The position numbers and the translations under genes were made by a program. A DNA stretch of 33,603 nt from Ignavibacteriaceae bacterium (lineage in GTDB: Bacteria; Bacteroidota; Ignavibacteria; Ignavibacteriales; Ignavibacteriaceae): positions 1 through 33,603 of the forward strand of contig JABWCA010000013.1 of assembly GCA_013359345.1 (NCBI GenBank), in the 5' to 3' direction. The notes below the pieces were generated by a model, which was given only the letters and a program-made list of their open reading frames with translations, had not been told where the DNA came from and did no database searches. Within the stretch, counting starts at the first letter, position 1; each line of letters opens with the position of its first letter. Below, piece after piece: positions 22,361-33,603 of this stretch.

Positions 22361-24865
22361 ATGGAACTTATTAAAGCCGAACCTTACGAACCACTGAAAA
22401 TCCGTCAGCTAAGATGGAAGTGCGACTCCTCAGTCTTCAAAGTTGAATCAACCGATGAACTCGATCCCATTGAAGGGATCATTGGTCAGGAGAGGGCGTT
22501 AAAAGCTCTCAAGCTTGGTGTATCCATCAGAAAACCGGGCTACAATATTTTTATTACAGGACTTGCCGGTACCGGCAAAACGACGATGGTGCAGGATATC
22601 CTTGAAACCCTTTCAACAACCTGCCCAACGCTCAGAGATTATGCCTATGTGAACAACTTTATTGATCCCGACCGGCCCATACTTCTCACTTTCCCGAAAG
22701 GGAAGGGGCGCGAGTTCAGGGATGCAATGAAAAATCTCATTGAAGTTCTGCGTGACCGTATACCCACTGTATTAGAGAGTGAAGGCTTTAACACGAAAAG
22801 GAAGGCAATCTTTGAGCATTATTCTGGTATTGAGAAAAAACTCCAGGTTGAGTTTAATGATGTGATAGAGAAGGAAGGTTTTACGCTGGGCACTGTTCAG
22901 GTGGGTGAAAACCAGAGTACCGATCTCATGCCCGTTGTAAACGGTAAGGCCGTTCCGATCACCAAGATTGAAGCCATGGTTAAAATGGGGGCCATGAAAG
23001 AGAAAGAAGCCAAAACGATTCTCACCAAGTATGAAACCCATCATGCAGATCTGATTCAGTTTGTAAGAAATATGATGAAGATCCAGGAAGAAGTTAAACA
23101 GAAATTCACTGAACTTGAACGCGATGAAGTTGTAACCATAATCACTGCGCTTAAAAATAACATTGCAGAGAAATTCGCAGATGAAAAGATTCTCAGGTAT
23201 ATTGATTCGGTTACGGCAAGTGTGCTTGATAATCTCGCACTTTTCAAGATGAAGCAGATCCCTCCCGAGGTTCTTGAACAGTTTCCCAAGTTTGATCCTT
23301 TCAGAGAATTTGATGTGAACGTGATACTCGATAACAGCACCGTGGAAGAGTGCCCGGTTATAATTGAGATTAACCCGACTTTCACCAACTTGTTCGGCAC
23401 GATTGAGAGAGTCAGCGACGGCCGCGGCGGATATATTGCCGATTTCATGAACATCAAGGCAGGCTCGCTGCTAAGGGCTAACGGCGGATTTCTCGTTATG
23501 AGAGTTTCACCCCTGTTTGAAGCCGGGATGGTATGGAAAAATCTGAAAAGGGTGCTTAGCCATCATAAACTGAATGTGCAGGATAGTCCCGGTATGATTG
23601 GTATTGCCCCGTCATTCCTGCAGCCCGAATCAATTGATATTGATACAAAGGTGATCCTGATAGGGAATAATTACACCTATTCTCTTCTCAGTTCCTACGA
23701 AGATGATTTTAAGAAGATATTCAAAATCAAAGCTGATTTTGATTATGAAATTGATAAAAGCAGGCACTCCATCATGGAATATGCCCGCGTTCTTGCAAAG
23801 CTGATCAGGGAAGAGGGACTTAAAAATTTTGATAAAAAAGCTATTGCATATCTGATAGAACTTGCCGCAAAGTTCAGCGGAAGCCGCAATAAACTCACCA
23901 CCCGTTTTTCAATACTGACCGATCTCCTCAGAGAGGCTGATTTTTATGCAACGCAGTCAGGTAAGAAACGGGTTTCGGCCGAAAATGTGAAGGAAGCTTA
24001 TTACGCTTCAATCGAAAGGCATTCGCTCAGCGAGGAGAAGATAAGAGAAGCTGTTGAGAATGATAAAATCATGCTCAGCACACAGGGGTATAAAACGGGT
24101 CAGATTAACGGGCTTGCCGTTTACGGTACCGAACATTACAGCTTTGGAATACCTGTGAAAATCACTTCATCGGTAGCGCTGGGCACGGGAAACGTGCTGA
24201 ATGTTGAAAGAGAAGCCGGACTCAGCGGAAAGACATATGATAAAGGTGTGCTCATTCTTACGGGTTATCTCAAAGAGACATTCGGCAAGGAGATGCCGCT
24301 TATGTTTACTGCCAATCTCGTATTTGAGCAGTCATACGGAATGGTTGACGGCGACAGTGCTTCTGCGGCAGAACTGCTGGCACTGATCAGCGGAATTTCG
24401 GGAGTGCCGCTCAATCAGGCACTCGCCATCACGGGCAGTATCAATCAGAAAGGGGAGATTCAGCCAATTGGCGGAGTGAATGAAAAGATAGAAGGATTTT
24501 ACAGAATCTGCAAAAAACGCGGATTTGCCGAAGGACAGGGTGTTGTTATTCCCGTTCAGAATGTTGATGATCTTATGCTTCATGAAGATGTGCTGGTATC
24601 GGTGAAAAAAGGAGAATTCAGAATCATTGCCGTCAGTGATATAAAAGAAGCGGTTGAGATTTTTACGGGTCACCGTGCCGGTTCTGAAAAGAAGACGGAA
24701 AAAGGAACGGTTTATGCAAAACTCCGGGCAAAACTTGAAGAGTTTCTTGAAGTGTCAAGGAGCGCGAAAAAAGGAGTTGAAAAGACTGCCAAAGCCAAAA
24801 AAGTGAAAAAGAAGAAACCGGCTCCAAAACCGGAAAATGCAAATGATGAAAACACAAAGGACTAA
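22361..24865 (+). CDS. Lon-family ATP-dependent protease (LonB/LonH-like)
   Basis: This 834-residue protein joins an AAA+ domain to a Lon-type serine protease domain without the N-terminal substrate domain of LonA, matching the LonB/YcbZ (LonH) type. Walker A is GLAGTGKT (67-74), followed by a long helical insert (about 130-330). The protease domain carries catalytic Ser666 in GDSAS and Lys709 in VNEKIEGF, 43 residues apart as in E. coli Lon. No membrane helices are seen, so it should be cytoplasmic, unlike archaeal LonB. The last about 60 residues form a Lys/Ala/Pro-rich tail. No SD is obvious. It begins a tight six-gene run with pyk 12 bases downstream. Confidence 0.92.
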   Translation: MELIKAEPYEPLKIRQLRWKCDSSVFKVESTDELDPIEGIIGQERALKALKLGVSIRKPGYNIFITGLAGTGKTTMVQDILETLSTTCPTLRDYAYVNNFIDPDRPILLTFPKGKGREFRDAMKNLIEVLRDRIPTVLESEGFNTKRKAIFEHYSGIEKKLQVEFNDVIEKEGFTLGTVQVGENQSTDLMPVVNGKAVPITKIEAMVKMGAMKEKEAKTILTKYETHHADLIQFVRNMMKIQEEVKQKFTELERDEVVTIITALKNNIAEKFADEKILRYIDSVTASVLDNLALFKMKQIPPEVLEQFPKFDPFREFDVNVILDNSTVEECPVIIEINPTFTNLFGTIERVSDGRGGYIADFMNIKAGSLLRANGGFLVMRVSPLFEAGMVWKNLKRVLSHHKLNVQDSPGMIGIAPSFLQPESIDIDTKVILIGNNYTYSLLSSYEDDFKKIFKIKADFDYEIDKSRHSIMEYARVLAKLIREEGLKNFDKKAIAYLIELAAKFSGSRNKLTTRFSILTDLLREADFYATQSGKKRVSAENVKEAYYASIERHSLSEEKIREAVENDKIMLSTQGYKTGQINGLAVYGTEHYSFGIPVKITSSVALGTGNVLNVEREAGLSGKTYDKGVLILTGYLKETFGKEMPLMFTANLVFEQSYGMVDGDSASAAELLALISGISGVPLNQALAITGSINQKGEIQPIGGVNEKIEGFYRICKKRGFAEGQGVVIPVQNVDDLMLHEDVLVSVKKGEFRIIAVSDIKEAVEIFTGHRAGSEKKTEKGTVYAKLRAKLEEFLEVSRSAKKGVEKTAKAKKVKKKKPAPKPENANDENTKD

Positions 24866-29671: not shown

Positions 29672-29872
29672 AGAAGATAATTATCGAATAAAAACCCTCA
29701 ACCCCGGCGGGGTTGGAAATAAAAAAGGATTGCAGTTAATTCTGTTTCCTTTTTACAGTACATATGTACCGATCCCGAAAAATCGGGACGGCGATACATT
29801 TTAACTCCCGGATTCGTGATTCTGAATTAAAATTGCTGCTTAAAGCTGAAAATTTGATATTTCACATCATTT

Positions 29873-29896
29873 ATTGCCGCCGGTTTTAACCGACGG
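29873..29896. repeat. Palindromic repeat, inverted copy of 610-633
   Basis: Read on the minus strand this 24-base segment matches the hairpin and flank at 610-633 except at one position (CCGTCGGTTAAAACCGGCGG against CCGTCGGTTAAAACCGACGG). Finding the same 24 bases more than 29 kb apart in opposite orientation supports a dispersed repeat family. Confidence 0.75.
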
Positions 29897-30112
29897 AGAA
29901 GAAATATCACAACCACACCGGCTTTAGCCGCATAAAAACTTTCAGAAGGGATACCTGCTTAATCCATTAATTCCATTTTCCGGGAATTTCGATTTTCGGG
30001 ATATTCAGGAATTTAATCGGAGAGCAGCAGCGCACGGCACTTGTTTATTCTGCTTTTTGCATGCTGAAAATATGTGCCCGCAAAAATGTTTTTAATATAA
30101 TGAAAAGCGGTT

Positions 30113-33058
30113 ATGCGTACTAAAATACGTTCACTGTTAGTAATAGCAGCCGTACTGATTATCTGCACTTCTGTGAAAGCCCAGCTTTCAGATCTGCTCC
30201 TGAACAGAATGATTGATTCTGTGTTCACGAATCAGGATAAGATAAAGCTCCGTTCTGTTTACGGGTCTACTCCGGCTCTGTCCGATTTTAACTTCCTTTA
30301 TGAGCAGGCTAACCACTACGAAAAATCTCTTCAGTATGACAGTCTTGCCTCAGTTCTGTTTTATGCAATGCTCACCAGAGACAAGTACACAGTATCATCG
30401 ATTCTTTATTCTGTTGCAACTGTAAAGATGCTGAACGGAGAGCATTTTTATGCGATAGAAATAATTGATAAGGTGTTTGAGTTTTTCAGAAGAGCTAATA
30501 ACCGTTCATTTCTGTCATCATTTTATTTCCTCAAGGGTCAGGCATACATTAATATGTCGATGTTTGACGATGCGGTTTCTCAGATCAGCGCAGGTATAGG
30601 GCTTTCAAAACAATCGGGTTATCAGGGGGAAACGGGCTATGGCTATTTTATTCTGGGGGACCTTTATGATTCAATCGGGGAGAGGGATTCGGCAAAAGCT
30701 GCATATAGTCTGGCAATGAAGAATTATGAACAGATTAATGAAGCGCAGGGAATGGCTAACTGCTGTTTCAGACTCTCAGAGATGGCACTCAGAGAAACGG
30801 ATATCCTTACAAGCCTTAAATATCTTGATGAGGCGGGTGCAATTTACCGTGAGATTGGTGATTATCAGGGACTTGGTAACATTTATTACACTCTCGGCAA
30901 AATCTACGGAACAATAAATCAGGAGCAGAAAGAGAAAACATACTATGACTCGGCATATGTTTACTATAGTTACACGGCCGATCTGCTTGGAAGGGGAAAT
31001 GTGAAAACCAGGCTGGGAGATCTGTTCCTGAGAGAAGAAGATTATGAATCCGCAAAGAAGGCTTATTCTGAGGCATCTGCTTTTCTTGAAAAAATAGGGG
31101 AGGCATCGGGTCTTGGCAGCACTTATCTCGGTCTGGGTAAGGCGTATATGTATCTCAATGAAGAAGACTCGGCAATGATACAGTTTAATAGGTCGCTGGG
31201 TTACTTTGAGCGGGACAGAACTGAACTGGGCAAGGGAAATGTATGGCTTGAGATCGGAAACATGCGGATAATGGCCCGCCGATTCACTGAGGCAGATACT
31301 GCTTTCGGTCTTGCTCTTAAATCTTATATCAACTGTCAGAATAAACTAAATATGGCCTGGGCGAACTTTAGTCTCGGGTTTACAGGTGAGCAGCTGGGAA
31401 GCAATGACACTGCCCTGATACGATATAAAACGGCACTTTCACTTCTTGATCAGGTTCGTGATGAAACGGGATTCTCTGAGATGAAACTGACATTTCAGGA
31501 GAGGATGTATTCAAGCTACTCCACTGCCATCGGGTTTATGCTGAGGAACGGATTTTACAGGGATGCCCAGCAGTATGCAGAGGCTGTGAAATCGAGAACT
31601 TTTCTTGACCAGATTGCCGAGAAGAAGACGATAGATTTTGATAAGGAGATTGATCCTCAGCTTCGCTTTTCCAGAGATAATATTATTAACACCCTGGCAA
31701 ACCTGAAGACTTACACTCAGCAGGTGAGGGATGACTCTCAGAGAAACATGCTGCTTGATTCAATTAAAAACTATGAAAATCACCTTGAAGAAGTAATAAG
31801 AAAAATCAGATTCAGTAACCCAAGGTTTGCGGCTGTCAGATATTTTGAGCCTGCCGGACTTGAACAGATTCAACAGGCACTCAGGGAGGATGAGATTATA
31901 CTTTCATATCTTCAGTTTTCTGAAGCGATTACCACTTTCATAATAGATAAAAAAGGGATGGAAGTCACAATTAAGGATGTAAGCTCTGCAGTAATTGACT
32001 CACTTACCGAATCAGCGCTTGCTCTGATGAAAGCAACTGCACTCAGAGGTGCCGAAGAGATAGGCGATGAGGAGCAGCCTGATTCACTTTTATGGCAGAA
32101 TGCACTGGCAGATCTGCATGATATTCTGATTACGCCCGCATCAGAGTTCCTCACCGGGAAAAAGGCTGTTGTAATTATACCGTCAGGAAAACTCTCGGTA
32201 ATTCCTTTTGAAATGCTGATCACCGGCAGAGAGAACGGGCAGGTCAGATTCCTGACAGAGGATTATACAATCAGCTACTCGCAGAGCAGTACACTTTTCA
32301 GCCTGTACCGAAGCGAGTTAAAACCGGCTGCATCCCGCAAAATCACAAGCTTTGTTGCATTTGGTGATCCGGTTTATGATTATGATTCGTACAAGGCAGG
32401 TCTTCCGGAAAAGGGTGTTCCGGGAACCAGAGGTGCAGATGAGAACCTCTATGAAGAGCAGAATCGTGAGAGTTTTCTGAGGCTGGGTGAGGTGCTTAAC
32501 AGACTGCCTGCCACCTCAGCAGAGATCAGTACGATCAGTGATATAATGACATCAAACGGTATAAATGCAACCGCATTTTTGAGGGCCGATGCCACTGAAG
32601 AGAACGCAAAATCTGATGTGACAGCAAATGCTGATATCATTTCTTTTGCATGCCATGGTCTGCTTTCTGATGAGTACCAGTCGCTTGCGCTGAGCAGAAT
32701 ACCGGGAGCAAAAGAGGACGGCTTTTTCACCATTGAAGAAATAATGACAATGAACTGGAAGGCAGGCCTGGTTGTCCTTTCGGCCTGTAAAACGGGGAAA
32801 GGAAAGATACGGCGCGGTGAAGGGGTGATGGGGCTATCCCGTGCAGTTATGTATGCAGGAGCGGCTGCAGCGCTGGTATCCCTCTGGAGCGTTGAAGATA
32901 ATGCCACAAAGGAGCTTATGATTAATTTCTTCAGCCGGTATATATCGCAAAACATGAAAAAAACCGAAGCCCTCAGAATGGCAAAGCTTGATATGATAAA
33001 ATCGGGTAAGTATTCCAATCCGTTTTACTGGGCTGCTTTTATTATGTACGGAGAGTAG
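30113..33058 (+). CDS. Exported TPR-CHAT protein (clan CD peptidase-like)
   Basis: The 981-residue product has a signal peptide (cleavage likely after Ala23), at least eight TPR-like repeats over about 60-440 (YLGLGKAYMYLNEEDSAMIQF, YYTLGKIYGTINQEQKEKTYY), a helical linker (about 480-590), and a C-terminal CHAT domain. The CHAT catalytic pair is intact: His848 in FACHGLLSDEYQSLALS and Cys892 in VLSACKTGKGK, followed by GVMGLSRAVMYAGAAAALVSLW. CHAT domains are caspase/separase-like proteases. Most studied ones are cytoplasmic, whereas this protein should act outside the inner membrane. Its target is unknown. A caspase-family gene follows 95 bases downstream. Confidence 0.92.
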   Translation: MRTKIRSLLVIAAVLIICTSVKAQLSDLLLNRMIDSVFTNQDKIKLRSVYGSTPALSDFNFLYEQANHYEKSLQYDSLASVLFYAMLTRDKYTVSSILYSVATVKMLNGEHFYAIEIIDKVFEFFRRANNRSFLSSFYFLKGQAYINMSMFDDAVSQISAGIGLSKQSGYQGETGYGYFILGDLYDSIGERDSAKAAYSLAMKNYEQINEAQGMANCCFRLSEMALRETDILTSLKYLDEAGAIYREIGDYQGLGNIYYTLGKIYGTINQEQKEKTYYDSAYVYYSYTADLLGRGNVKTRLGDLFLREEDYESAKKAYSEASAFLEKIGEASGLGSTYLGLGKAYMYLNEEDSAMIQFNRSLGYFERDRTELGKGNVWLEIGNMRIMARRFTEADTAFGLALKSYINCQNKLNMAWANFSLGFTGEQLGSNDTALIRYKTALSLLDQVRDETGFSEMKLTFQERMYSSYSTAIGFMLRNGFYRDAQQYAEAVKSRTFLDQIAEKKTIDFDKEIDPQLRFSRDNIINTLANLKTYTQQVRDDSQRNMLLDSIKNYENHLEEVIRKIRFSNPRFAAVRYFEPAGLEQIQQALREDEIILSYLQFSEAITTFIIDKKGMEVTIKDVSSAVIDSLTESALALMKATALRGAEEIGDEEQPDSLLWQNALADLHDILITPASEFLTGKKAVVIIPSGKLSVIPFEMLITGRENGQVRFLTEDYTISYSQSSTLFSLYRSELKPAASRKITSFVAFGDPVYDYDSYKAGLPEKGVPGTRGADENLYEEQNRESFLRLGEVLNRLPATSAEISTISDIMTSNGINATAFLRADATEENAKSDVTANADIISFACHGLLSDEYQSLALSRIPGAKEDGFFTIEEIMTMNWKAGLVVLSACKTGKGKIRRGEGVMGLSRAVMYAGAAAALVSLWSVEDNATKELMINFFSRYISQNMKKTEALRMAKLDMIKSGKYSNPFYWAAFIMYGE

Positions 33059-33153
33059 GCGGTTCACGGAGAGAAGAGATAAAACCGCTTTACTCAGAAA
33101 AGTTTTAATTCAATAAAAAGAAATCCGGATGTTTTTCCGGCGTCTGAATTATC

Positions 33154-33603
33154 ATGAATAAAAGATACTGTATCTGTCAGTTTTTATGCCTTTTATTGCT
33201 GTTCATAAGCATCACATCTGCACAGCAGCCTGTTAAACGAGCGCTGATTACCGGGATATCCGAGTTTAAGTATTTCCCGTATATTAACGGCGAAAATGAC
33301 ATCAGGCTGATAAGTGAGGCGCTTGCTGAACAGAAATTCACCGATATAAGAGTGCTTGCCGGTAAACAAGCGACCAAACAGAACCTGATGGCCGCATTTG
33401 ACACTCTGATAAATGATACAGGACCCGGCGATATAATCGTTCTCCATTTTTCAACGCACGGTCAGCAGATTTACGATGTCAGCGGTGATGAACCTGACGG
33501 GCTTGATGAAGCAATGGTTATGTATGACTCGTATCCCGAATTCAGGGATGGTTACACAGGCCAGAATCATTTCAGTGACGATGAATTTGAGATTGTGCTG
33601 GAG
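33154..33603 (+). CDS. Exported caspase-family (peptidase C14) protein, 3' truncated
   Basis: The frame is open from ATG 33154 to the window edge (150 codons). It starts with a signal peptide (MNKRYCICQFLCLLLLFISI..., cleavage likely after Ala23), then RALITGISEFKYFPYINGENDI, matching the caspase/metacaspase opening strand and N-D-x2 motif, and HFSTHGQQIYDVSGDEPDG with catalytic His102, followed by LDEAMVMYD. The catalytic Cys should lie beyond the window. Lipid, TPR or other C-terminal domains cannot be seen. The gene is in the same direction as the TPR-CHAT gene and may be cotranscribed; a short CCGGA/TCCGG hairpin lies between them. Confidence 0.88.
   Translation, partial: MNKRYCICQFLCLLLLFISITSAQQPVKRALITGISEFKYFPYINGENDIRLISEALAEQKFTDIRVLAGKQATKQNLMAAFDTLINDTGPGDIIVLHFSTHGQQIYDVSGDEPDGLDEAMVMYDSYPEFRDGYTGQNHFSDDEFEIVLE

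Follow-up and report, generated by a model that had tools for sequence, protein, structure and literature searches.

The window analysed here, 33,603 bases long, is the whole of contig C15 of a draft Ignavibacteriaceae genome (4.26 Mb in 454 contigs). It ends in two genes on the same strand, one for a protein with tetratricopeptide repeats (TPR) and a CHAT peptidase domain and one for a caspase, and both products carry signal peptides. We put at about even the chance that the two are members of an extracytoplasmic module of regulated proteolysis. The recurrence of the combination in relatives, often with further exported proteases, suggests at the sequence level a protein-cutting system in the cell envelope. 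More generally, the data support the view that exported clan CD enzymes adjoin more often than chance, in several bacterial lineages and in both gene orders. The export signals, the intact CHAT dyad, the recurrence and the presence of other exported peptidases within these gene runs are direct observations. An initial annotation of the window had described the pair and proposed a periplasmic or surface cascade in which one enzyme activates the other; its observations are partly confirmed and its interpretation is partly supported by what follows. The layout that it gave, two clan CD peptidase-like genes 95 bases apart with a CHAT His/Cys pair and a caspase His in place, is exact:

30113..33058, + strand: TPR-CHAT gene, 981 amino acids (open reading frame; Pfam CHAT 2.1e-58, TPR_12 3.4e-17; AlphaFold2 model matching Csx29 and separase)
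30113..30181, + strand: signal peptide of the CHAT protein, predicted cleavage after residue 23 between SVKA and QLSD (sequence reading, hydropathy script, Q-rule pattern of PMC5837995)
30383..31465, + strand: TPR superhelix, residues ~91-451 (helix-pair pattern in the model; Pfam TPR)
32102..33055, + strand: CHAT peptidase domain, residues 664-981 (Pfam PF12770)
32654..32656, + strand: codon of catalytic His848 (invariant in 16 CHAT proteins)
32786..32788, + strand: codon of catalytic Cys892, in SACKTG (invariant in the same 16)
32897..32899, + strand: codon of Asp929, in SLWSVED, a candidate S1-pocket acid (invariant in the same 16; pocket role presumed)
33059..33153, no strand: 95-base spacer with no clear + strand terminator or promoter
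33154..33603, + strand: gene of the exported caspase (C14), truncated by the end of the contig after 150 codons (Pfam PF00656, Peptidase_C14, 5.5e-10; 43% identity to the complete paralogue on contig C128)
33154..33222, + strand: signal peptide of the caspase, predicted cleavage after residue 23 between ITSA and QQPV (sequence reading, hydropathy script, Q-rule pattern)
33457..33459, + strand: codon of caspase His102, in FSTHGQ (His invariant in 26 relatives)

Both signal peptides, which the initial annotation had also noted, are of the typical Bacteroidota type. Gln directly after the cleavage site is the Bacteroidetes Q-rule for substrates of signal peptidase I (PMC5837995). Predicted signal peptides are likewise found on nearly all partner proteins at the related loci described below. 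All export calls come from reading the sequence and from our own hydropathy script, not from a trained predictor.

The CHAT assignment is strong (198.5 bits against a curated cut-off of 24), and the AlphaFold2 model of the protein (mean pLDDT 79.4) has a separase-like fold, aligning with the separase protease domain 5fby at Z 27.3 over 320 residues (root-mean-square deviation, rmsd, 3.3). We take the position of Asp929 to be that of the S1-pocket Asp of separase, and a basic P1 residue is therefore suggested. The best full-length structural match, across TPR and CHAT, is Csx29 (Z 28.2, 520 residues, rmsd 6.1), while sequence similarity to Csx29 is weak (E=0.22-0.4). The top Foldseek match is DdvA of Myxococcus, a transmembrane anti-sigma factor (E=1.2e-14). 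Structural alignment with DdvA (PDB 8rot/8rw5) is loose (Z 21.5, 516 residues, rmsd 11), and the match is treated as a lead only for that reason; moreover, DdvA is a single protein with an anti-sigma part, which the window CHAT lacks. Pfam finds TPR and CHAT alone in the window protein, with no SAVED domain, and there is no C-terminal membrane anchor. PADLOC has no family for it and gives a generic caspase model only for the caspase; NCBIfam and PADLOC together name no specific system.

The caspase is known from its first 150 residues, which match PF00656 at 39.8 bits against a cut-off of 21.4. The catalytic Cys and any further domains of this copy are unseen since the contig stops at 33603; the reading frame is cut by the contig's own end and not merely by a window edge. 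The last 127 bases of C15 have no match or overlap with the other contigs of the genome, no C-terminal caspase piece was found on any contig of the assembly at E<=1e-20, and a genus-level search returned no second genome. With the remainder of the window copy absent from the assembly, the complete paralogue on C128 (661 residues, 43% identical over the shared part) stands in for it. The model of this paralogue (pLDDT 80.6) has a metacaspase-like fold, seen in the paralogue only (Z 24.6 over 232 residues and rmsd 3.6 against metacaspase 6w8r), and also matches the Arg-specific paracaspase MALT1. Residues H103, D168 and C170 are kept in 25 of 25 complete relatives, with the Asp two residues ahead of the Cys in a DAC or DSC motif. 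In a modelled Nostoc orthocaspase, the Asp at the equivalent position helps to bind an Arg-Arg ligand (PMC8283722), and for this reason a preference of the caspase for Arg or Lys is likely. The C-terminal part of the paralogue resembles DUF4384 (E=8.7e-6, just below Pfam's cut-off).

Behind Cys170 the paralogue model contains loop segments of low confidence (172-180 and 203-214). In or near this loop lie R177, R184 and G185 (numbering of the paralogue, L036), which are conserved without exception in the exported caspases (25 of 25). By inference from the alignment and the model, R177 and R184-G185 are candidate maturation sites for an Arg-specific enzyme.

A related-locus search with three caspases as query returned 28 loci, nearly all from Bacteroidota; the same search with the window CHAT protein alone returned none. 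A same-strand exported CHAT gene lies within 4.5 kb of the caspase in nine of the 28, and His and Cys are kept in all partner CHATs. Larkinella knui (L070) has the gene order of the window, CHAT then caspase, with 102 bases between, and in Spirosoma and two other Larkinella (L063, L069, L072) CHAT is followed by a TPR-caspase and then a caspase. The reverse order, caspase then CHAT, occurs in Paraflavisolibacter (4 bases), in a metagenome-assembled genome (MAG) of Cyclobacteriaceae (8) and in two further MAGs (31 and 36; L078, L080, L084 and L085 for the four). In Prevotellamassilia timonensis (L087, 7974-12920) an exported caspase, a sigma factor, a membrane protein and an exported CHAT form one run on one strand. 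Of the named loci, 17 have 3 kb or more of sequence on either side; an exported CHAT gene lies within 4.5 kb of the caspase in 8 of these 17, and some further clan CD gene is near in 15. In an even sample of the phylum, surveyed with a profile built from 26 rows, the caspase is present in 9 of 392 genomes; one of these genomes, G381, has CHAT then caspase in the order of the window with a 4-nucleotide overlap, followed by an exported M48 peptidase.

The window genome itself holds a second such pair. On C128 the exported caspase overlaps an exported TPR gene by 4 nucleotides, and the contig ends before any CHAT domain. The start of contig C105 is 60% identical to the corresponding end of a CHAT protein of genome G075, and judging from this similarity C105 is very probably the missing CHAT end of the TPR gene. 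Genomes G075 and G076 have an orthologous, overlapping caspase/CHAT pair, divergent from an exported WD40-caspase gene. A common origin of these pairs with that of the window was considered and rejected for CHAT, which belongs to different clades; the caspases are related (43%).

Other exported peptidases also adjoin the exported caspase. They are trypsin-like at L068, L073, L074 (with ankyrins) and L080 (with PDZ), astacin at L084 and L085, papain-like at L083, M28 at L074 and M48 at L123. Exported caspase homologues that lack the catalytic Cys lie near an intact exported caspase at L066 (6631-7701), L074 (10001-11059) and L103 (2811-5360); such proteins are possible inhibitors or scaffolds. 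The mixture of peptidases and Cys-less homologues fits a regulated envelope proteolytic network better than a single house-keeping enzyme.

In a tree of 53 CHAT domains (the window CHAT is row L095) there are 6 changes between the paired and unpaired states, of which at least 4 are forced by well-supported branches. The window CHAT groups with CHAT proteins of G073, G075 and G076 at a support of 100/100. Relatives of the window caspase pair with another CHAT clade, in the opposite gene order. It follows that the CHAT/caspase association arose repeatedly, since the CHAT partners belong to several clades. Repeated formation of the combination points, as far as these sequences go, to a functional link in general, and the local nature of the window's own pair calls for caution about this instance.

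Several points weigh against placing the window pair in such a module. None of the three closest CHAT relatives has a caspase nearby, so the exact pair of the window is local. In the even phylum sample, outside the family of the window genome, the caspase has an adjacent CHAT at only 1 of 6 loci. In the window 95 bases separate the two genes, and the caspase is incomplete. Finally, the invariant arginines could be structural. Recurrence, by which the initial annotation would have the pair judged, holds for the exported CHAT/caspase combination, which is found across lineages, and fails for the window's own pair, which is not conserved. Its second criterion, a catalytic Cys in the downstream protein, can be read in the 25 full-length relatives, all of which keep that residue.

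A possible, if somewhat unlikely, alternative is that the two genes are independent neighbours, drawn from expanded families that cluster through duplication and insertion at variable places and do separate jobs. The genome has seven CHAT domains, the window pair is not kept in relatives, and several exported caspases stand next to other caspases only. However, both caspases of this genome adjoin a CHAT gene, for which the rough chance is ~5e-6. A CHAT gene lies within 4.5 kb in 6 of 20 collapsed lineages (~1e-6 under a simple density model with 0-7 CHAT genes per genome, a rough estimate because the named loci are no random sample). The 4-nucleotide gene overlaps in several lineages and the recruitment of different CHAT clades also speak against mere proximity.

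Two further arrangements of exported CHAT genes were noticed in the window genome. Contig C218 (L041, 1832-9884) carries two exported TPR-CHAT genes in tandem, of ~820 and 1850 residues, and the tandem is conserved in G073, G076 and G032 (L107, L108, L109) with similar divergent exported neighbours. Contig C413 (L040, 4603-9654; also L110-L120) encodes an extracytoplasmic function (ECF) sigma factor, an anti-sigma factor and a TPR-CHAT that is exported and carries a membrane anchor at its C terminus. The anti-sigma factor has one membrane helix and invariant H49, H80, C84 and C87, as in zinc anti-sigma factors, and the anchored CHATs preserve LSTHS and LSSC at their dyad without exception. Among 164 genomes of the order, an anti-sigma gene lies directly upstream on the same strand in 34 of 40 such CHAT matches, with gaps of 6-126 bases between the two matches; the six exceptions include pieces at contig ends. 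The arrangement occurs here and in no fewer than 33 more genomes of the order, with the ECF sigma gene ahead wherever checked. With the logic of Csx29-Csx30-CASP-sigma, but outside CRISPR, the anchored CHAT looks like a candidate site-1 protease in the control of an envelope sigma factor.

The exported CHAT of the window might instead work in envelope signalling, making the site-1 cut in an anti-sigma factor of the membrane or in some other membrane regulator, while the caspase plays an accessory part. The C413-type operons, the Prevotellamassilia run with its sigma factor and membrane protein, and the cleavage of a sigma inhibitor by Csx29 (PMC10028731) all lend this idea some credit. It is nonetheless improbable, as the visible neighbourhood of the window pair contains neither a sigma nor an anti-sigma gene. 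The C413-type operon as such was set aside as an explanation of the pair because the window CHAT belongs to another clade and is anchorless.

Extracellular digestion of protein for food, in the manner of the gingipains and clostripain, is very improbable. The additional exported general peptidases of the trypsin, astacin, M48, M28 and papain types in the same runs would suit it, but the TPR, WD40 and ankyrin regulatory parts, the catalytically dead exported caspases beside live ones (L066, L074) and the rarity of the caspase in the phylum would not. We know of no CHAT partner for gingipains or clostripain. These enzymes are likewise exported members of clan CD with an Arg/Lys preference (PMC4357240), and belong to different families (C25 and C11). 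A role in envelope defence against phages or competitors is the least probable, since the service of cytoplasmic CHAT and caspase enzymes in defence (Csx29, SAVED-CHAT) and the loosely matching DdvA, which as anti-sigma acts on DdvS, a regulator of a phage-defence island, are set against the PADLOC results and the housekeeping genes annotated around the pair, where no mobile context is seen.

Returning to the extracytoplasmic module, the following mechanism can be proposed. Both proteins would be exported by Sec and processed by signal peptidase I. In the first, the TPR superhelix would serve for sensing or docking and control the CHAT peptidase of separase type, much as in Csx29. Its partner would be a metacaspase-like peptidase preferring Arg or Lys, with (in relatives) a DUF4384-type C-terminal part, and Arg/Lys specificity is probable for the module as a whole. 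That one enzyme activates the other, as the initial annotation had it, is plausible. In the most likely wiring that we infer, the TPR-CHAT, under regulation, would act first as initiator, and the caspase would follow as executioner, matured by a cut at R177 and R184-G185 (paralogue) in the flexible loop behind the catalytic Cys. The substrates of both enzymes would be periplasmic or cell-surface proteins. This order is favoured by the precedent of type III-B CRISPR, where a CHAT protease activates a prokaryotic caspase encoded nearby, and by that of Csx29 described next.

Csx29 of the type III-E Craspase (PMC10028731) likewise joins a TPR superhelix to a CHAT peptidase with a His/Cys dyad. It works in the cytoplasm in a complex with Cas7-11 and is switched on by target RNA, whereas the window CHAT has a predicted signal peptide. 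No Cas7-11 or other Cas gene is among the genes annotated from 19066 up to the pair (upstream side only). The SAVED-CHAT/caspase system, too, has a CHAT protease gene near a caspase gene; it is cytoplasmic and its SAVED domain binds a nucleotide signal, while in the window CHAT TPRs take its place, and both window proteins are exported. SAVED-CHAT of type III-B CRISPR is cited in PMC11417357. Orthocaspases and metacaspases (C14B), such as MaOC1 and the DUF4384-bearing cyanobacterial ones, share the p20 fold, the HG...DxC motif, a predicted Arg specificity and in some cases DUF4384; the excerpt of PMC8283722 that describes them does not report export or adjoining exported CHAT and other peptidases, as seen here.

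CHAT proteases and bacterial caspases are known chiefly as cytoplasmic immune and cell-death enzymes; the initial annotation, too, set out from systems that act mostly in the cytoplasm. Export alone is not new, however, because a survey had already noted 46 prokaryotic caspase homologues with an N-terminal helix, possibly a signal peptide (PMC3501461). The domains and the DUF4384 caspases (PMC8283722) were known as well. What is apparently new is the exported caspase-CHAT combination: no paper found in the open-licence literature describes such pairs, or operons that surround them with exported proteases of mixed kinds.

Promoter and terminator scans gave fewer sites than in shuffles. The dispersed repeats reported upstream exist as three short GC-rich palindrome-like motifs, above chance (29699-29715, 29880-29892 and 29916-29930), one of them with two near copies at 576-626. 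They are probably dispersed intergenic repeats; they are short palindromes alone, and no tie to the CHAT/caspase pair was found. A gene for a LonB/LonC-type ATP-dependent protease lies further upstream (22361-24865), with no link to the pair seen.

A bolder version of the proposal, which we consider unlikely in its entirety, is a dedicated envelope cascade of Bacteroidota and relatives. In it an exported TPR-CHAT would mature an exported Arg-specific caspase and, at the richer loci, also trypsin, astacin, M48 or papain-type enzymes. Such a cascade would mirror, outside the cytoplasm, the cytoplasmic CHAT-caspase relay of CRISPR, and would have come together on several occasions with CHATs of different lineages. 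A recurrent exported combination, at some loci in one run with proteases of other clans, would bring CHAT/caspase chemistry to the cell envelope and resemble, in bacteria, the protease relays of complement or coagulation. The exported combination may also be the source from which the cytoplasmic CRISPR CHAT-caspase and CHAT-sigma modules derive.

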